Positions 49,714 to 63,028 of a DNA stretch of 64,000 nucleotides are shown here, piece by piece. Source of the stretch: Balneolaceae bacterium (lineage in GTDB: Bacteria; Bacteroidota; Rhodothermia; Balneolales; Balneolaceae); contig JAEPQH010000005.1 in assembly GCA_017640605.1 (NCBI GenBank), forward strand, positions 62,001-126,000, given 5' to 3'. How positions within the stretch are numbered: the first letter of the stretch is position 1; every line of letters begins with the position of its first letter. The notes beneath the pieces were generated by a model. It had not been told where the DNA came from, ran no database searches, and worked only from the letters and a program-made list of their open reading frames with translations. A program made the translations under genes and the position numbers.

Positions 49714-51069
49714 ATGAAATATACTTTTTTAGCGCTGATTATCACTTTTCTTGGGCTTAACAGCTCTCTTGTAAGCGCTCAGCAACCGGCCGATCAAATT
49801 GTAGCCATCGTAAACGACAACATCATTTTAAAGTCCGACATCGATTCTGATGTATCCGCTTATCTCAGACAAGCACAAAATATGGGGCAACCTATCTCTT
49901 TTTCTGAAGGTTTGTGGTACGACTTTTTAAATGCATCTATCGAGAACAAACTACTAATTGAGAAAGCAAAGATAGATTCTATTGTAGTGCCAGACGAACG
50001 CGTAAACCGACAAATGGATCAACGAGTTGATCAACTAATACGCCAAGCAGGCAGTGAACGCGCATTGGAGCAAGCCTTCGGCAAATCGATCATCCAATTA
50101 AAAGAAGACTTTAGGGAAGATTTTAGAGAGCAAATGCTTACCGAAATGGTTCGCATGGGTAAGTTTGAAACGGTTAAAATTACTCGTCCTGAAGTACAAG
50201 AGTTTTTCAATTCAATTCCTAAGGATTCACTTCCTACAATACCTGAACAAGTTTCGCTTTCTCAAATTGTAATTGTACCACCTGCAAAAGCAGATGCAAA
50301 AAATGCCGCTTTTCAGCTTGCGCAATCACTAAGAGATTCGATTTTAAATCATGGCAAAAGTTTGGAAGAACTTGCACGCCGCCATAGTGATGGTCCTTCT
50401 GGTCCACGTGGTGGACTTCTCCCATTAATGGGATTAAATGAATTAGTAAGCGAATACTCTGCTGCTGCTGCTGCCCTTCAGCCCGGTCAAATTTCGGAAG
50501 TTGTGGAAACAAGCTTTGGCTTCCATGTGATTGAATTAATCCGTCGAGTTGGAGATCAAATCGAAACACGCCACATCCTCATTTCTGTAGATAGTAATGA
50601 GTTGGATGATGAATATGCTCAACAGCGCTTGATCGAAATAAGAGATTCCATCCAAACCAACAACGACATCACTTTTTCGATGATGGCTAAGGCCAGAAGT
50701 GAAGATCCAGCAACCAAAGTTACGGGCGGTAAAATTCTGGACCCACAAACCGGTGAACGATTAATTCCATTGAATCGATTAGATCCATCGTTATACAGAG
50801 TTGTTTTATTGATGGATGAAGTTGGGACAATTTCTGAACCTCGCCCTTTTAATCTACAATCTGGGAATGGTGGGAAGGCTTACCGCATTGTTCGATTAGA
50901 TCAACAAATACCAGAGCATGTGGCAAATATGGAACAAGACTACGAGCGATTAAAAAGCATTGCGCTTCAGCGTAAGCAAGTGGAAGAATACACCAATTGG
51001 ATCGAAGAATTGAAAGAAGATGTATACATCGAGTATCGTATACCCATGCCAAATAAGGAGAATAATTAA
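49714..51069 (+). CDS. surA: Periplasmic chaperone SurA
   Basis: A 451-residue SurA-type protein with a cleavable signal ending in LVSAQ. The N-terminal chaperone module is QIVAIVNDNIILKSDIDSDV. Two parvulin domains follow. The first contains VSLSQIVIV, HSDGPSGPRGGLLPLMG and GFHVIELIRRV; the second starts at ETRHILISVD. It acts on unfolded outer-membrane proteins passing to the Bam complex. Its TAA overlaps the moxR start by 1 bp. Confidence 0.9.
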   Translation: MKYTFLALIITFLGLNSSLVSAQQPADQIVAIVNDNIILKSDIDSDVSAYLRQAQNMGQPISFSEGLWYDFLNASIENKLLIEKAKIDSIVVPDERVNRQMDQRVDQLIRQAGSERALEQAFGKSIIQLKEDFREDFREQMLTEMVRMGKFETVKITRPEVQEFFNSIPKDSLPTIPEQVSLSQIVIVPPAKADAKNAAFQLAQSLRDSILNHGKSLEELARRHSDGPSGPRGGLLPLMGLNELVSEYSAAAAALQPGQISEVVETSFGFHVIELIRRVGDQIETRHILISVDSNELDDEYAQQRLIEIRDSIQTNNDITFSMMAKARSEDPATKVTGGKILDPQTGERLIPLNRLDPSLYRVVLLMDEVGTISEPRPFNLQSGNGGKAYRIVRLDQQIPEHVANMEQDYERLKSIALQRKQVEEYTNWIEELKEDVYIEYRIPMPNKENN

Positions 51070-52064
51070 TGAGCGTTGAGCTAAATGATCCGGTTCAGTT
51101 GGCCGATGAATTTAAAACTGCTTTCGATAACATTAAATCGGAAATTCATAAAGCTGTAATAGGACAAGAAGATATAATTGATCTTTTACTGATAAGTCTA
51201 TTTTCTAAAGGTCATTGTGTGTTGGTTGGAGTACCGGGACTAGCTAAAACATTGCTCATCAGAACATTAGCGGATTCACTCAATCTATCTTTTAACCGAA
51301 TTCAATTCACTCCGGATCTAATGCCAGGCGATATAACCGGAACAGAAGTTATTGAAGAGAACGTTGATAAAGGAACTAAAGAGTTCAAGTTTATAAAAGG
51401 ACCTATCTTCGCAAACATCGTATTAGCGGATGAGATCAATCGTACACCGCCAAAAACACAAGCGGCCTTGCTAGAAGGAATGCAAGAGTATCATGTAACC
51501 GCATCAGGAACAACCTACGACTTAGATACGCCTTTCTTTGTGTTAGCTACACAAAACCCGATTGAGCAAGAAGGAACCTACCCTCTTCCCGAAGCGCAGC
51601 TGGATCGTTTTATGTTCAACATTTGGGTGGATTACCCAAGCTTTGAAGAAGAAAAACAGATTGTGAGTCAAACTACATCACGGCAAAATATTCAGATCAA
51701 CTCCATGCTTGATCGCGAGAAGATTAATCAATTACAATCGTTGGTGCGCGAAGTACCTGTTCCTGATAGTGTGTTAGATTATGCGGTGAAATTAGTGGGA
51801 ATGACTCGTCCGAATTCGGAAATGGCTCCTGATTATATCAAAAAATATATGAGTTGGGGCGCAGGACCTCGAGCAAGCCAATATTTGATTTTGGGTGGTA
51901 AAGCCCGAGCGCTTTCAAAAGGCCGATATAATGTAACCGAAGAGGATATTAAAGCCTTAGCTGTTCCTGTACTGCGCCATCGTATCGTAAATAATTATGC
52001 AGCCGAGGCCGAAGGATTCACCACCATCAAGCTAATTGAGCGATTATTGGAAGATGTAAATTAG
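51069..52064 (+). CDS. MoxR-family AAA+ ATPase
   Basis: A 331-residue MoxR. Walker A is GVPGLAKTLLIR (with Leu-Ala in place of Gly-x-Gly), Walker B is ANIVLADEINRTPPKTQ, and sensor 1 is FVLATQNPIEQEGTYPLPEAQLDRF (a stretch present in all MoxR). MoxR ATPases act as chaperones for VWA-domain partners. The next gene has a VWA-like domain, which fits. The surA-moxR coupling ties it to envelope protein handling. Confidence 0.94.
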   Translation: MSVELNDPVQLADEFKTAFDNIKSEIHKAVIGQEDIIDLLLISLFSKGHCVLVGVPGLAKTLLIRTLADSLNLSFNRIQFTPDLMPGDITGTEVIEENVDKGTKEFKFIKGPIFANIVLADEINRTPPKTQAALLEGMQEYHVTASGTTYDLDTPFFVLATQNPIEQEGTYPLPEAQLDRFMFNIWVDYPSFEEEKQIVSQTTSRQNIQINSMLDREKINQLQSLVREVPVPDSVLDYAVKLVGMTRPNSEMAPDYIKKYMSWGAGPRASQYLILGGKARALSKGRYNVTEEDIKALAVPVLRHRIVNNYAAEAEGFTTIKLIERLLEDVN

Positions 52065-52068
52065 AAGG

Positions 52069-54180
52069 ATGACATTTATGGACTTTCAAGGTTTCCAGTC
52101 TTCTTTCTCTACCATCGCAATTTTATCAGTAATTGCAATTCTGATTTGCCTAGCTCTTTACAGCTACCATAAACAAAAGAGCTTACCTGTAGGCTCTAGA
52201 TGGTTATTAGGAACCTTACGGGCAATCACATTAACCATTATTGCTTTACTCATTTTTAATCCTGTATTCTTTAAATCGGAATTGGTTGAGCGTGAACCTA
52301 AGTTGTTAGTGCTATTCGATAATTCTGAGTCTTTAGCGATTGAAAAAGGAGACTATAGAGGAATACAGTCTATAAATGAGTTGCTTACTGAGCTGGCTTT
52401 TGAAACTCGAACTGAAGCGAGCATTGATTTCTTTTCTTTCGGTAACGACACTCGACCGGTCTTATCACCTGATTCTTTGAGATTTTCGGAATCGCAAACC
52501 AATTTTACCGAAGCGATAACACAAATTGAAGAATTACAGGACGATTACAATGTTGCCATAATAATCAGTGACGGCATTATTACTATCGGTCGAAACCCAC
52601 TTATTCAAGCGGCAGGACTTGGAATTCCTGTTTTTACCATCGCTACCGGTGATACCTCGGCAGTACGTGATGTTACCATCAACAATATTCTAACTAATAA
52701 TACAGGCTACACAGAAAGTAATCACATTGTAGAAGTTGAAGTTTCACAAAACGGGTTTTCCGGCTCAGAGACTGTACTAACTATTTTTGATGGACAAAAA
52801 AATGCGGTTACTTCCGAAGAACTTTCGTTTTCAGCCTCAGAAGAAGTACAAACCATTCAACTGGAGCTCCCGCTTAAAGAAGAAGGCTTACAGGCTTTTC
52901 AAGTGCAAATTGAAGCATTAGATGAAGAATGGTCCACTGAAAATAACACAAGAACGTTTAGTATAGATGTATTAGATAGCAAAACGCGGGTACTTCATAT
53001 TGCGAGCGAAATTCACCCCGATGTTAAAGCAATTCGTTCACTTCTTCTCTCTGATCCTTCCTACGAACTAAGTACGTTAACTTGGTTAGGAGGTAATTCT
53101 TTTGTTGAGACAGAATCTCCAAATGTTGATGACCTAGATCTGATCGTACTTCATGGAATGGTACAAGGTGATTGGTTACCAAATCAGGAAGAGCTCATCA
53201 CACAAACACCCACTTTATATATAGAACTGCCCCGGACCAGACGAAACTCAGTAGAAAGACTTCCTATTCGATTACTAAATAATCAAGGAGCTCAGATCTT
53301 TGAATTGAATATTATTCCGAATGCAAACAACGAAGATCACCCTATTCTGGAAGTAAGCGAAGTTAATTATGACGCCTTAGCTCCAATACTAACTTCATTG
53401 CGCGCAACCGTTAACGGTGTTGACATTACTTCGTTACTGAATACTCAATTTCAAAATATGGTCACCCCAAATACGGTACTCGCCATTGCTGACAGAGGTA
53501 ATTCGCGTCGTGCTCATATCGCTGCCTGGGGTTGGCATCGGTTATTTCAAAGTACCAATGAAACGGAGCGATTATTTGCCGAAGAATTATTCTTAAATAC
53601 AATTACCTGGGCATCTAATAATCCGGATGAACGATTACTCACCATAACACCATCAAAATCTGTATTCAACAGTTCTGAGTCGGTAATAATTAATGCGAGC
53701 TTGGTGAACGAAAGTGGTGAATCTGAATCGGATGCAGCTATCGAATTTCATTTGATCGACGAATCGGGCAATGATCGAGTATTCAATATGACGAATAATG
53801 GTGCCGGGCGGTATTCCATTCAATTTGAATCATTGAGTAATGGTTTATACTCTTTCTCAGCAACTGCACGAAAAGGCTCTAGAACATTGGATGAACAAAC
53901 CGGGGAGTTTTTGGTGGAAGACTCCAGTTCGGAACTTATAAACACCGTTAGAAACGATCCATTTCTAAACTCATTGGCACTAGAAAGTGAGGGAAGTTTC
54001 TTTATCTATAACCAAATACAAAACTTCTGGGAAACCCTTCGCGATAAAGGAACCCTAACCTCAACCGAAGAACTAGTGGAAGCCTACATCCACCCTATTC
54101 GATCTATATTTTGGTTTGTATTGGTTATTCTCTTGTTGGGTGCAGAGTGGTTATTACGCAAAAATTATTCGTTGCCTTAA
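52069..54180 (+). CDS. Large VWA-like membrane protein (BatA/GATase-like family)
   Basis: A 703-residue protein with two N-terminal helices (~15-30, ~50-67), a VWA-like domain at ~75-210 and a C-terminal helix near 680-697. In the VWA-like region, LLVLFDNSESLAIEKG is the MIDAS-like start and VAIIISDGIITIG follows. The middle is a beta-sandwich region followed by an alpha/beta segment (LDLIVLHGMVQGDW) seen in proteins of this type near MoxR. The MIDAS motif DxSxS is altered to DNSES, so metal binding is plausible. It is probably the MoxR partner. The start could also be ATG 52078. Confidence 0.78.
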   Translation: MTFMDFQGFQSSFSTIAILSVIAILICLALYSYHKQKSLPVGSRWLLGTLRAITLTIIALLIFNPVFFKSELVEREPKLLVLFDNSESLAIEKGDYRGIQSINELLTELAFETRTEASIDFFSFGNDTRPVLSPDSLRFSESQTNFTEAITQIEELQDDYNVAIIISDGIITIGRNPLIQAAGLGIPVFTIATGDTSAVRDVTINNILTNNTGYTESNHIVEVEVSQNGFSGSETVLTIFDGQKNAVTSEELSFSASEEVQTIQLELPLKEEGLQAFQVQIEALDEEWSTENNTRTFSIDVLDSKTRVLHIASEIHPDVKAIRSLLLSDPSYELSTLTWLGGNSFVETESPNVDDLDLIVLHGMVQGDWLPNQEELITQTPTLYIELPRTRRNSVERLPIRLLNNQGAQIFELNIIPNANNEDHPILEVSEVNYDALAPILTSLRATVNGVDITSLLNTQFQNMVTPNTVLAIADRGNSRRAHIAAWGWHRLFQSTNETERLFAEELFLNTITWASNNPDERLLTITPSKSVFNSSESVIINASLVNESGESESDAAIEFHLIDESGNDRVFNMTNNGAGRYSIQFESLSNGLYSFSATARKGSRTLDEQTGEFLVEDSSSELINTVRNDPFLNSLALESEGSFFIYNQIQNFWETLRDKGTLTSTEELVEAYIHPIRSIFWFVLVILLLGAEWLLRKNYSLP

Positions 54181-56507: not shown

Positions 56508-57050
56508 TTAAATAATCAGAATTGATTCGATTGGAGCTTCTTTCTCAAGCAGTGCCCGGCCGTTTAAAAAACTAAGCTCCATAATGAATGAGTAACCAAC
56601 AACTATTCCGCCTAATTCTTGTACTAATTTTGTAGCGGCAACAGCAGAACCCCCGGTGGCAATTAAGTCATCGTGAATTAATACTTTGGCACCCGGTGTT
56701 ATTGCATCTGCATGCATCTCAAGGGTATCCATTCCATATTCCAATTCGTATTGCTGAGAAATGGTATCTGCCGGTAGTTTGCCCGGTTTTCTAACAGGAA
56801 CAAATCCCGCATTTAAATTCTGTGCAATGTTGGTTCCAAATAAAAACCCGCGTGATTCTAGGCCAACTACTACATCCACTTCTTTTTCCAGATAGGGCTC
56901 GGTGAGCAAAAAAGTAGTGAGTTGTAATGCTTTTTTATTCGATAATAACGTAGTTATATCTTTGAACTGAATGCCTTCTTTGGGGAAATCAGGGATGGTT
57001 CGAATATTATCGAGCAAATATTCTTTAATACTTTCTTCTACTTTTTGCAT
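56508..57050 (-). CDS. apt: Adenine phosphoribosyltransferase
   Basis: A 180-residue Apt that converts adenine and PRPP to AMP. The start at ATG 57050 gives MQKVEESIKEYLLDNIRTIP, the expected N-terminus; the longer frame to 57107 adds unmatched residues. The PRPP-binding motif is VLIHDDLIATGGSA, and GLESRGFLFG is the flexible loop region. It is divergent from tadA by 62 bp. Confidence 0.96.
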   Translation of the reverse strand: MQKVEESIKEYLLDNIRTIPDFPKEGIQFKDITTLLSNKKALQLTTFLLTEPYLEKEVDVVVGLESRGFLFGTNIAQNLNAGFVPVRKPGKLPADTISQQYELEYGMDTLEMHADAITPGAKVLIHDDLIATGGSAVAATKLVQELGGIVVGYSFIMELSFLNGRALLEKEAPIESILII

Positions 57051-57112
57051 AAACTTGATGTTATAAAATTCGACCCGAAAGTAGAGATAATTACCTACAT
57101 CAATCAAGCAGA

Positions 57113-57595
57113 ATGAGTAATTCAGAAAAACCGATTTGGCAGGTTCATCAACAGTATATGGCTAAGGCTTTGCAATTAGCTGAACGTGCTTTCGAAGAAG
57201 GCGAGATTCCTGTTGGCGCAATTGTTGTGCATGAGAATCAAATTGTGGGCAAAGGATACAATCAGGTTGAACGTTTAAACGACCCAACAGCTCATGCCGA
57301 AATGTTAGCGATTTCTGCAGCTTGCGATACGATTGACTCCAAATACTTAAGTGATTGCACCTTATATGTTACGCTAGAACCATGCCCGATGTGTGCAGGT
57401 GGTATTGTTTGGTCGAAATTAGGTACGGTGGTTTTTGGTGCTTCGGATCCTAAATCAGGAGCCTGTGGCAGCATGTTTAATATTGCCGACAACGAGACTT
57501 TGAATCATAGAGCCAAAGTAATTCAAGGTGTGCTAGAACACGATGCGGAATATCTGCTTAAAGCATTTTTTGCGAGTAAAAGACAAAAATTCTAG
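57113..57595 (+). CDS. tadA: tRNA-specific adenosine deaminase
   Basis: A 160-residue cytidine-deaminase-fold enzyme. The catalytic HAE is in DPTAHAEMLAI and the zinc cysteines are in LEPCPMCAGGI. TadA converts A34 to inosine in tRNA-Arg. VVFGASDPKSGACGS is the typical TadA segment, distinguishing it from guanine deaminases. Its TAG stop shares the palindrome CTAG with the stop of the convergent large fusion gene (4-bp overlap). Confidence 0.94.
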   Translation: MSNSEKPIWQVHQQYMAKALQLAERAFEEGEIPVGAIVVHENQIVGKGYNQVERLNDPTAHAEMLAISAACDTIDSKYLSDCTLYVTLEPCPMCAGGIVWSKLGTVVFGASDPKSGACGSMFNIADNETLNHRAKVIQGVLEHDAEYLLKAFFASKRQKF

Positions 57596-60015
57596 CCAAA
57601 GAGTTTAATAAGTGCTCTAAGCGAAGGTATTTTTTTTTCTGGCTGTTGGATGTTTACCTGGTTCGCAATTTCGTAGGCCATTTTCCATTGCCTACACAAA
57701 GTTTTAACCGCATACCAATATGGATATCTAGGATCGTAAATATGAGTCGCTTCGGATGTAATCCCATTTAACTCCAGCACTTTGAGGTTATTCCCTTCTT
57801 TGAAATGTGTTTCATCCGGAACTTTGATATCAAATCGGCCAAAATAAAAACCATCAAAACTCTTACTAATATCATCTATTCGATCTACCAATGCTCTAGT
57901 TTTAAGATGAATTCCATCTCTAAAAATAGCTCCTCGCGAATGGGTACCAACTTCAACAAGCTTAATCAATTTTCCTTTGGGAATAATGTTAAATAAATGA
58001 TCCGCATGTTGTTCAAAATGAGTATTAGCCATGCACACTGCGCGCTCATCTTTAAGTATTAATTCTTCAAGAGTATGTTTTCCATCACCTGTTATCCATA
58101 AATATTCTTTTTGGGTGATGGAAATAATATCACCATTCTCTTGATTTGGATAGCGAGCATAAAATACACCGTACTCCTCTCCATCTATATATTCCTGAAT
58201 TATAAATGAACTCGAAAACTGAGTTATCATCCGCTTCAATTCCATTTCATTTTTAGGGATTACCACTTGCTTGCCTCGTTCCCCTATATCCGGTTTTAAG
58301 ACAACAGGAAAAGTGAGTTTATTATCTGATATAAAAGTCAGACAATCAGAAAATGCACGTTCATCAGCATTAATAACACGAAAATTTGCTACGGCATCTT
58401 GTTTTTGAATGGCACATAGAATTTTGGATTTAGACTCTCTCACAAGTCCCCCATATTCGATTCCGGGGTTCGCTAATGTGACTAAAGCAATACTTTTGTG
58501 TTTGATCCATAATCCAATGATATAAATCACAACAGGTACGTAAAGTGCAACAGGTGTCCAGAATTCCCACTTTGTTTTTCTCCGAAATCGGCCAACTAGA
58601 AGTCTTCTACCTTTATAGGTAAACGAAGGGATAATGATTTTGATCAGAATATAAAATACAGCAAATAGCCCAATCAGAGCCCAGATTGCATACTCTTGAT
58701 ACACCGAGAAATATTCAATCATCTCATTTCCTAGTACCACTGCAAGACCTACTAAGATTGGAGTCCACATTAAAGAGGCAATTCCGAAATAAAAGATGAA
58801 GGTAAAGAAGTTAGCTCCGATCGCACCTGCACTTACGTAGGTTGGAAATCTCGATCCAGGAATAAATCTACTGGCGATTATTATAGCCGGACCTTTTGCT
58901 TCGAACCAGTAATAAGATAGTTCGAGATCTTTTTCAGAGATAAACCATTTTAGAGGTGCTTTATTGATTGTGCCTTTGGCAACCCATCGTCCCATCAAAT
59001 AAAGTAGAATATCACCCACGAAAATACCGATCAGGCAAGCGAGCACCCCAGGAAAAAAGCCTATCATTCCGCGTGCGATCAATAATCCAGTTCCAATACA
59101 AGTAAGATCTTCGGTAATAAAGGTGGAAAAAATAATAACCAGCATTAAGATGATTAGAGCTTTACCCTCGGCTTTTATGCTGTTAGAAGCATCAAAAGGC
59201 TGTTTAGAGAGTATATCTGCCGCCATCGAAACTTCTGAGCGAACTTTCACATCTTGCGTATCCACTCGCTGATGAAATGCGGCAATTGTTGAATCAATCT
59301 CATCTCGACTTAATACCTGCAACTCACTTTGTGGGAGCAATCGATGAAGTTCAGTGGCAACTTCCTTTCTAACTTCAGCATCAGCAGTATGAATCACAGA
59401 AATAGGAAGCTGGATAGTTTTAAGTATTTCCCTGATTTCTTGGTGATCAGATTTAACCTGAATCTCTGCTCTCGTGATATGATTGTTTAAAAAGTCTAAC
59501 GAACCAAAATGCGGAACTAACGCCTTTAGAAGTTGAAAACCTATTTTTTTCCCTTGATAAATAGCTTGGTTCAAGAATGCTCCACCGAGTAATTCAAGCT
59601 CTACTATTCCAGTAGAGTTAATCAACGTTAAAGACTGAACCGTATCATTTAATGAAGCCTGTGCAGTAATATGCATAGCAACGCTTCCACCTATTCCCTC
59701 TCCAATCAAATGATATCGAACTATTTCTAATGAATCTGTGAGCTGAATAACTTTAGTTGCTTGATCTTTGATACTCTCTCGCTCCAATTCTATGATCAAA
59801 AATTCATCATCAAAACTCTCAAATTGTTTAAGATTTGAGTAAACCGGATCAGCGATGTAAATCGTAGTTATGCTATCATAGTTGAGAAATGTAAGCTTAT
59901 CGTTTTCCCCATTAAATAATATTTGATATCCGAACGAAGCTGCCAGAAGTACAAAGTAACAAACCGTAGTAACTACCCATTTCTTAGAAATAAAACGGTT
60001 CGTTGATTCAGACAT
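57592..60015 (-). CDS. Fusion: dead alpha/beta-hydrolase-like domain + DedA/VTT membrane domain + ATP-grasp ligase
   Basis: An 807-residue protein. One membrane helix lies at ~13-30. Residues ~40-270 follow an alpha/beta-hydrolase pattern (LIGEGIGGSVAMH, LTLINSTGIVELELLGG), but the nucleophile elbow is GEGIGG instead of G-x-S-x-G and the catalytic His is not evident, so it should be inactive. Residues ~285-435 are a DedA/VTT domain (ARGMIGFFPGVLACLIGIFVG, SRFIPGSRFPTYVSAGAIG). After more helices, ~540-790 form an ATP-grasp ligase (VVLKPDIGERGKQVV, FIIQEYIDGEEYGV, metal site VLELNG). It is last in the GNAT-PlsC-DinB operon. I infer synthesis and movement of an amino-acid- or peptide-linked lipid. 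Confidence 0.8.
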   Translation of the reverse strand: MSESTNRFISKKWVVTTVCYFVLLAASFGYQILFNGENDKLTFLNYDSITTIYIADPVYSNLKQFESFDDEFLIIELERESIKDQATKVIQLTDSLEIVRYHLIGEGIGGSVAMHITAQASLNDTVQSLTLINSTGIVELELLGGAFLNQAIYQGKKIGFQLLKALVPHFGSLDFLNNHITRAEIQVKSDHQEIREILKTIQLPISVIHTADAEVRKEVATELHRLLPQSELQVLSRDEIDSTIAAFHQRVDTQDVKVRSEVSMAADILSKQPFDASNSIKAEGKALIILMLVIIFSTFITEDLTCIGTGLLIARGMIGFFPGVLACLIGIFVGDILLYLMGRWVAKGTINKAPLKWFISEKDLELSYYWFEAKGPAIIIASRFIPGSRFPTYVSAGAIGANFFTFIFYFGIASLMWTPILVGLAVVLGNEMIEYFSVYQEYAIWALIGLFAVFYILIKIIIPSFTYKGRRLLVGRFRRKTKWEFWTPVALYVPVVIYIIGLWIKHKSIALVTLANPGIEYGGLVRESKSKILCAIQKQDAVANFRVINADERAFSDCLTFISDNKLTFPVVLKPDIGERGKQVVIPKNEMELKRMITQFSSSFIIQEYIDGEEYGVFYARYPNQENGDIISITQKEYLWITGDGKHTLEELILKDERAVCMANTHFEQHADHLFNIIPKGKLIKLVEVGTHSRGAIFRDGIHLKTRALVDRIDDISKSFDGFYFGRFDIKVPDETHFKEGNNLKVLELNGITSEATHIYDPRYPYWYAVKTLCRQWKMAYEIANQVNIQQPEKKIPSLRALIKLFG

Positions 60016-62245: not shown

Positions 62246-63028
62246 GTGCTTTACTATAAAAAATACGAAAAGGACGAAAGCAAAGAATGGGTGGTTTTTG
62301 TACACGGCGCAGGGGGAAGTTCGTCTATATGGTTCCAGCAGTTAAAGGCATTTAAAAGTGTATTCAATGTTCTTCTGGTTGATTTACGAGGACATGGTAA
62401 ATCGAAAGATGCCTTACAAATGTACTACGAAGAAGAATATACTTTTGATGATATCAGTAAAGATGTACTACAAGTCCTCGATCACCTTAATATACAAAGA
62501 GCTCATTTTGTGGGGGTTTCTCTTGGTACTATTATCATTAGAAACTTAAGCGAACTTGCTCCTGAAAGAGTCAAATCTGCTATCCTTTGTGGAGCAATTA
62601 CACGGCTTAATGTTCGCTCCAGATTACTCGTTTTTTTGGGCAATACCTTTAAAAAATTCGTGCCATACATGTGGTTATATCGCTTTTTTGCATGGATAAT
62701 TATGCCTCGAAAGCGCCATGAAAAAGCACGCAATCTATTTATTGGTGAAGCCAAGAAACTGTATCAGAAGGAATTTATGAGATGGTTTAAATTAACCAAC
62801 TCAGTAAATCCGTTGCTTAAATATTTTAAAGAAAAAGAAATCGATACTCCTATGCTTTATGTGATGGGAAGCGAAGACTACATGTTTTTGCCACCGGTTC
62901 AGCAAATAGTAGCTGATCACAAGCAGTCATTTCTTGAAGTAATCGATAATTGCGGACACGTTTGTAATGTAGAAAAGCCGAGGATATTTAATAAAATATC
63001 CATCGACTTCATCAAAAAAAATGTGTAA
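62246..63028 (+). CDS. Alpha/beta-fold hydrolase
   Basis: A 260-residue protein with a GTG start (62246-62248). FVHGAGGSSSIWFQQL gives the oxyanion region, GVSLGT the nucleophile Ser, the Asp is in YVMGSEDYMF and the His is in DNCGHVCNVEKP, so the catalytic set is complete. Substrate is unknown. It is divergent from the OlsB-like gene (104 bp), so a lipase or thioesterase role with that pathway is possible but unproved. It ends 4 bp from the convergent secretin gene. Confidence 0.88.
   Translation: MLYYKKYEKDESKEWVVFVHGAGGSSSIWFQQLKAFKSVFNVLLVDLRGHGKSKDALQMYYEEEYTFDDISKDVLQVLDHLNIQRAHFVGVSLGTIIIRNLSELAPERVKSAILCGAITRLNVRSRLLVFLGNTFKKFVPYMWLYRFFAWIIMPRKRHEKARNLFIGEAKKLYQKEFMRWFKLTNSVNPLLKYFKEKEIDTPMLYVMGSEDYMFLPPVQQIVADHKQSFLEVIDNCGHVCNVEKPRIFNKISIDFIKKNV

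Follow-up and report, generated by a model that had tools for sequence, protein, structure and literature searches.

Amino-lipids such as the ornithine, glycine and glutamine lipids are synthesised by OlsB together with OlsA or by OlsF, and the described pathways conclude with two acyl transfers, to which hydroxylation, methylation or the transfer of taurine is added (PMC11631085, PMC12493201). Head groups on record include glycine-serine and ornithine-taurine, and 'taurine transfer' is a named modification (PMC12493201). Two-residue head groups have been known for decades; the literature that we searched names no ligase for them and, as far as our searches reach, does not address the passage of amino-lipids across the inner membrane. 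The VTT domains of the DedA family that have been characterised are lipid movers. In Escherichia coli YghB, two acidic residues and the pair Arg130/Arg136, at the tips of re-entrant helices, are essential, and a role in the proton-driven flipping of undecaprenyl phosphate (UndP) has been proposed for them; in a 2023 survey of the family, the only fusion partners of COG0586 were rhodanese and PAP2 (PMC10127716). Here we analyse a gene from a 64,000-nucleotide stretch of a Balneolaceae bacterium genome (contig JAEPQH010000005.1, positions 62,001 to 126,000; the whole stretch is called the window, and coordinates refer to it). Its 807-residue product joins an alpha/beta-hydrolase-like domain, a VTT domain and an ATP-grasp ligase domain. 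Strong genomic evidence makes it highly probable that this fusion is linked to amino-lipid metabolism; the narrower proposal, that it extends the head group of an amino-lipid and translocates the lipid, we judge to be evenly balanced.

Results

The fusion gene lies downstream of olsB- and olsA-like genes

A closely packed operon on the minus strand holds olsB-, olsA- and dinB-like genes and, downstream of them, the fusion gene: 17 bases separate the olsB- and olsA-like genes, the olsA- and dinB-like genes overlap by 32 bases and 11 bases precede the fusion gene (Table 1). The order OlsB-OlsA-(DinB)-fusion turns up again across the family and the class. The OlsB model matched with 134 bits (E 7.5e-39) and the OlsA model with 120.9 bits (E 5e-35), against curated ornithine-specific cut-offs of 350 and 300, respectively; as both acyltransferases stay below these cut-offs, the amino acid of the head group need not be ornithine.

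The original prediction, made from the letters of the window, had described an 807-residue open reading frame (ORF) encoding a three-part fusion and gave no strand. The ORF is real and lies on the minus strand; the plus strand is shut by stops. A frame error is excluded because the same fusion runs uninterrupted, with no inner stops, in some 25 other genomes of the order, at 44-60% identity, and in many phyla. The 807-residue protein is thus a true fusion. Its AlphaFold2 (AF2) model, built with 50 relatives, has a mean pLDDT of 90.3 over the whole chain, and the hydrolase and ATP-grasp folds were both matched.

Presence of the ligase was then compared with that of OlsB in 92 sampled genomes of the family, scoring the ligase at E < 1e-100 and counting by hand. 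Both were present in 26 genomes, OlsB without the ligase in 29 and neither in 37, so that OlsB accompanied the ligase in 26 of 26 cases and no genome among the 92 carried the ligase without OlsB. Species lacking the ligase in two genera that otherwise bear it (G008; G012 and G017) also lack OlsB. Because the ligase never occurs without OlsB and OlsB often occurs without the ligase, these counts suggest a one-way dependence in which the ligase would act downstream of OlsB, on its product. Family members lacking the ligase have a hydrolase-VTT protein, or VTT alone, adjoining an OlsA-like gene; the hydrolase-VTT proteins of about 530 residues (L046-L053, L059-L064, L070 and L073) have an adjacent OlsA-like gene and mostly no adjacent OlsB. 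Apparently split ligase genes at L045 and L058 were rejected, as they correspond to contig ends.

The link to amino-lipid genes recurs in distant phyla

Scanning genome contigs with an alignment of the ligase domain yielded 80 loci in many phyla; a scan with a single sequence yielded nothing. Fusions, both hydrolase-VTT-ligase and VTT-ligase, were found in about a dozen phyla, including Acidobacteriota, Verrucomicrobiota, Planctomycetota, Thermodesulfobacteriota, Calditrichota, Krumholzibacteriota, Spirochaetota, Gemmatimonadota and Pseudomonadota; many of the genomes are metagenome bins and single phylum labels may err. Of the 44 loci flanked by 5 kb or more on either side (four of them from Balneolaceae), an OlsB or OlsF gene lies within 5 kb in 22, and none was found in 360 kb farther out; OlsB/OlsF, DinB or NRDE is present at 34. 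The count of 22 is probably an underestimate, because the ORF caller missed some OlsB/OlsF genes located about 3 kb from the fusion (L119, L126, L130 and L155). Where no neighbour was called (25 genomes), PF13444 is nevertheless encoded in 24, for the most part in frames as long as those of OlsB or OlsF, versus 2 of 14 controls; the comparison is with these control genomes and not with the base rate of the phyla.

In Vibrio, Photobacterium, Desulfobacterales and Nitrospira it is OlsF that adjoins the ligase, and the Nitrospira OlsF passes its curated cut-off (760 bits for 620). This recurrence with a different synthase supports a role in amino-lipid extension. In Vibrio cholerae, the OlsF protein VCA0646 is encoded by the last gene of a putative four-gene operon (PMC12186959). 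The parts joined in the fusion also travel together as separate genes: the order in Salinivibrio is VTT, ligase, DinB, NRDE, and Vibrio sp. THAF191d carries on one strand VTT, ligase, DinB, NRDE, YHS, DoxX and OlsF. Azospirillum has a VTT-ligase fusion without the hydrolase. Large plasmids in Salinivibrio, Vibrio, Azospirillum, Paracoccus and Komagataeibacter carry relatives of the ligase (L074-L080), under the annotations D-alanine--D-alanine ligase, VTT domain protein or hypothetical; the first of these names is probably wrong.

ATP-grasp enzymes can also N-acylate an amino acid, as in the formation of acyl-histidine in Legionella (PMC11631085), and the ligase could by analogy make the first amide bond between a free fatty acid and an amino acid. 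We consider this very improbable: OlsB already covers that step in the operon, the Nitrospira ligase adjoins a complete OlsF scoring above its curated cut-off, and the ligase is never without OlsB in the family genomes.

The ligase domain is related in fold to cyanophycin synthetase

The ATP-grasp ligase that the original prediction had called intact-looking is borne out by profile, fold and catalytic residues, all of which place the domain in the ATP-grasp superfamily. The RimK-type model PF08443 matches residues 543-613 with 30.0 bits (cut-off 21), residues K574, D576, G581, D729, E748 and N750 are invariant in 50 relatives, and AF2 models the domain alone with a pLDDT of 93.9 and a pTM of 0.91. 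The best fold match is cyanophycin synthetase 1 (Z 17.6, 4.3 Å over 267 residues, 17% identity), followed by bifunctional glutathione synthetase (Z 15.2) and by LysX, Ddl and RimK (Z about 12.5-14.6). Cyanophycin synthetases also come out on top when sequences of the PDB are searched with a ligase profile; the equivalog model for full-length cyanophycin synthetase gives 30.4 bits, far from its cut-off of 850. In both cyanophycin synthetase and bifunctional glutathione synthetase, a C-terminal carboxylate is phosphorylated and then linked to an amino acid through the amine of the latter. Since these are the nearest folds, addition of an amino acid to a carboxylate is favoured for the fusion.

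The ligase part opens with a hydrophobic helix that is kept in stand-alone ligases, where its mean hydropathy is 1.42 versus 1.03 for the mean maximum of the remaining chain (36 relatives). The helix, moderate in hydropathy, probably attaches the ligase to the membrane, and its retention in stand-alone ligases suggests a membrane-bound substrate.

The VTT domain carries conserved acidic residues and an arginine pair

A search with profile models supports the predicted DedA/VTT domain (PF09335 at residues 308-424, 59.4 bits for a cut-off of 33.9), and VTT_dom and ATP-grasp are the only matches in a Pfam scan of the whole 807-residue protein. Among NCBIfam models, UptA matches the VTT part best (E 3.4e-15), and neither curated UptA equivalog model reaches its cut-off (56.6 bits for 250 and 23.5 for 300); the original prediction mentioned UndP flippases among the proteins of this family, and membership in UptA does not follow. 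Arg383 and Arg389 are spaced by six residues as are Arg130 and Arg136 of YghB, and the correspondence of the second acid (D51) is tentative. Fold comparison of the full model with VIA-align returned mostly hydrolase matches, so that the VTT part was barely probed and the missing DedA structures are uninformative.

These features bear on the possibility that the protein handles UndP-linked or peptidoglycan material, with the VTT domain as an UndP flippase and the ligase as a D-Ala-D-Ala-like enzyme. The UptA match, the invariant arginine pair, equal in number and spacing to that of UndP flippases (PMC10127716), and the automatic annotation of relatives as D-alanine--D-alanine ligase all speak for it. 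However, the UptA score is far below its cut-off, the ligase fold is nearest to cyanophycin synthetase and not to Ddl, and the genes that recur among the neighbours are those of amino-lipid synthesis and not of the cell wall, which renders this possibility quite improbable.

The hydrolase domain has lost its nucleophile in Balneolaceae

By sequence, the hydrolase part remains below threshold, with weak NCBIfam matches to alpha/beta-hydrolases at residues 77-138 and 190-236. By fold it is clear (residues 37-255 match a thermophilic esterase with Z 19.0, 3.2 Å over 202 residues), as it is in relatives, in which the profile Abhydrolase_1 matches with 2.5e-34. In the elbow G105-E-G-I-G-G, alignment confirms that Gly107 occupies the position of the nucleophile, the absence of which had been predicted. 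The corresponding column holds Ser in 27 and Gly in 29 of 66 aligned hydrolase-VTT proteins. Outside Balneolaceae the Ser is retained in 26 of 31 fusions, nearly always alongside the expected Asp and His; the single Balneolaceae sequence retaining it is L044. Because so many of the fusions outside the family hold the Ser, the domain probably descends from an active enzyme and has degenerated in Balneolaceae: the term 'dead hydrolase' suits the protein of the window and describes a local loss.

Positive charges precede the N-terminal helix and negative charges follow it, and the segment 466-489 contains 8 Lys or Arg residues. Given this charge pattern and the topology of DedA proteins, the anchor would be oriented N-in, which puts the hydrolase on the periplasmic side and the ligase on the cytoplasmic side, with access to ATP.

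The loss of the nucleophile, together with the relatives in which hydrolase-VTT or VTT alone adjoins an acyltransferase without the ligase, would suit a protein acting in amino-lipid transport only, the VTT domain scrambling the lipid and both other domains being structural or regulatory. Such a role is scarcely probable, as the ATP-grasp core is invariant in 50 sequences from many phyla and the ligase must be strongly constrained.

A sister clade of ligases lacks amino-lipid genes

A tree of 127 ligase sequences shows a fully supported split between 28 sequences from Bacteroidota and 99 others, including that of the window. In the clade of 99, VTT is fused to the ligase in 83 and adjacent in 3; in the Bacteroidota clade, the ligase is stand-alone or fused to NRDE. 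The loci L191-L224 (e.g. L191, L199, L203 and L221) share a conserved YHS-DoxX-DinB-NRDE-ligase cluster, with a LysE-like membrane protein instead of VTT at 13 of them. At L192 and L200, ORFs of about 590 residues fuse an NRDE (TANGO2-like) domain to the ATP-grasp ligase. As the NRDE neighbours begin with Met-Cys, they may be N-terminal-nucleophile hydrolases that act as partners of the ligase.

Several observations weigh against the proposal that the fusion extends and moves an amino-lipid. Firstly, the ligases of the sister clade have no VTT and have YHS, DoxX, DinB and NRDE as neighbours instead of OlsB/OlsF; in the 16 genomes of this clade that were searched, neither OlsB nor OlsF was found, only GH3 proteins. 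This clade is the main reason for caution. Secondly, about half of the far loci have no OlsB/OlsF within 5 kb, some of these genes having been missed by the ORF caller, and the amino-lipid scheme does not account for the DinB, NRDE, YHS and DoxX neighbours. Thirdly, the VTT domain has the basic pair of phosphate-lipid flippases and its cargo may be another lipid. Finally, the sample of the order is phylogenetically nested, so that the 26 of 26 co-occurrences are not 26 independent events and carry no significance test. A general tie between the ligase and OlsF in Bacteroidota was rejected on account of the same 16 genomes with stand-alone ligases. GH3 (OlsH-like) proteins do not discriminate: they occur in all 16 of these genomes and in both genomes with OlsF that were tested.

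The sister clade speaks for a different explanation, in which the ligase cooperates with DinB, NRDE, YHS and DoxX to produce a small peptide-like or thiol compound, soluble or secreted, the VTT or LysE-like protein exports this compound, and amino-lipid genes are adjacent for regulation only. Its clusters with a LysE-like gene and without OlsB/OlsF, and the fusions of NRDE to the ligase, agree with this, as does the fact that DinB families are often thiol-dependent. We nevertheless hold it to be unlikely: OlsB/OlsF accompany the ligase in each of the 26 family genomes and in 24 of the 25 distant ones in which no neighbour had been called, the linkage recurs with two unrelated types of O-acyltransferase, the hydrophobic helix is retained on the stand-alone ligase, and characterised VTT domains move lipids (PMC10127716).

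Features of the locus and neighbouring genes

The features of the operon and of the fusion are collected in Table 1. Beside the operon, a divergent alpha/beta-hydrolase gene (62246-63028) is conserved in the family even without the ligase; it matches the O-acyltransferase OlsI weakly (40.7 bits for a cut-off of 385). On the other side, tadA-like deaminase and apt-like phosphoribosyltransferase genes (56508-57595) adjoin the fusion in much of the family. Farther away (51069-54180), a gene for a MoxR-like ATPase is followed by one for a 703-residue protein with a von Willebrand-like look.

Table 1. Coordinates in the window of the fusion, its domains and the upstream genes of the operon.
Feature	Position	Strand	Evidence
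Hydrolase / VTT / ATP-grasp fusion gene, 807 aa	57592..60015	minus	Single ORF; orthologous fusions; AF2 model
ATP-grasp ligase domain, residues 520-795	57631..58458	minus	PF08443; AF2; fold match; invariant columns
Hydrophobic helix at start of ligase part, residues 486-506	58498..58560	minus	Helix H488-506 in model; also in stand-alone ligase relatives
VTT/DedA domain, residues 284-464	58624..59166	minus	PF09335 profile; no variation at E302, D303, D335, R383 and R389 among 50 relatives
Alpha/beta-hydrolase domain, residues 36-255, Gly107 (59695-59697) in place of the nucleophile Ser	59251..59910	minus	Fold match; weak NCBIfam matches; elbow alignment
N-terminal membrane anchor helix, residues 11-34	59914..59985	minus	Helix H11-34 in model and charge pattern; topology inferred
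DinB-like protein, 181 aa	60027..60572	minus	PF05163, E 1.1e-4, just below cut-off; DinB recurs as a neighbour (35 loci), also in other phyla
OlsA-like O-acyltransferase (lyso-aminolipid acyltransferase), 265 aa	60541..61338	minus	PF01553, 66.5 bits; OlsA model
OlsB-like amino acid N-acyltransferase, 268 aa	61356..62162	minus	PF13444, 106.8 bits; OlsB model

Discussion

From the observed domains, motifs, operon and link to OlsB/OlsF, we infer a reaction, an added group, a topology, a direction and a flipping step, as follows. By homology, OlsB would acylate an amino acid with a 3-hydroxy fatty acid, and OlsA would attach the second fatty acid. The cytoplasmic ATP-grasp domain, held at the membrane by its hydrophobic helix, would then use ATP to activate a carboxylate, most likely the free head-group carboxylate of the OlsB/OlsA lipid (or elsewhere of the OlsF lipid), and link it with a further amino compound to yield an amino-lipid of the dipeptide type. 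Receiving this product through the fusion, the VTT domain would carry the lipid across the inner membrane. In this protein the periplasmic hydrolase domain, probably catalytic in most relatives, is deprived of its nucleophile and may at most bind lipid or play a structural role. The original prediction that an amino acid is attached to a lipid and the product moved fits the olsB- and olsA-like genes upstream and the linkage to olsB/olsF; the lipid is likely to be of the N-acyl amino acid kind and, unlike that of MprF, not a phospholipid.

More tentatively, the fusions that the survey of domain co-occurrence revealed in about a dozen phyla might represent a widespread unrecognised branch of amino-lipid metabolism, in which a membrane-bound ATP-grasp ligase, usually fused to VTT and often to a periplasmic hydrolase, makes and moves two-residue OlsB/OlsF lipids, with DinB and NRDE/TANGO2-like proteins as further members. 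The origin of two-residue head groups and the passage of amino-lipids across the inner membrane are both made testable by a single chain with the two candidate activities and by its separate-gene versions in Vibrionaceae. The link to NRDE/TANGO2 also provides a bacterial context for that protein family.

Comparison with described systems places the fusion next to, and outside, each of them. It shares with amino-lipid synthesis an operon encoding OlsB- and OlsA-like enzymes, replaced elsewhere by OlsF, and adds an ATP-grasp/VTT step that the open-licence literature on these pathways does not describe: the step is absent from two sections of a 2024 amino-lipid review (PMC11631085), and none of the open-licence PubMed Central papers searched describes a combination of ATP-grasp with DedA, ornithine lipid or TANGO2/DinB. 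Cyanophycin synthetases (CphA1/CphA2) and bifunctional glutathione synthetase provide the nearest folds and profile matches to the ligase; in contrast to cyanophycin synthetase, the ligase of the fusion is probably attached to the membrane and has no Mur-ligase-like partner domain, in addition to its low identity and its score below the equivalog cut-off. The fusion resembles the DedA/VTT flippases (COG0586, UptA) in its two arginines six residues apart and perhaps in its conserved acidic pair, whereas it scores below the UptA cut-offs and its partner domains differ from those of the surveyed COG0586 fusions (PMC10127716). Cerilipin, the ornithine-taurine lipid of Gluconobacter cerinus, has a two-part head group of the kind that such a ligase could make (PMC4484230); no gene is named for it in the open-licence literature searched, and the only ligase relatives seen in Acetobacteraceae are the stand-alone ones on Komagataeibacter plasmids. 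The resemblance to MprF proposed in the original prediction holds as an analogy and not as family membership: the domains are unrelated, no MprF-type Pfam domain is present, ATP is likely used instead of aminoacyl-tRNA and the substrate is probably an amino-lipid, but in both cases the concept is that of a head-group synthase and a lipid mover combined in one chain.

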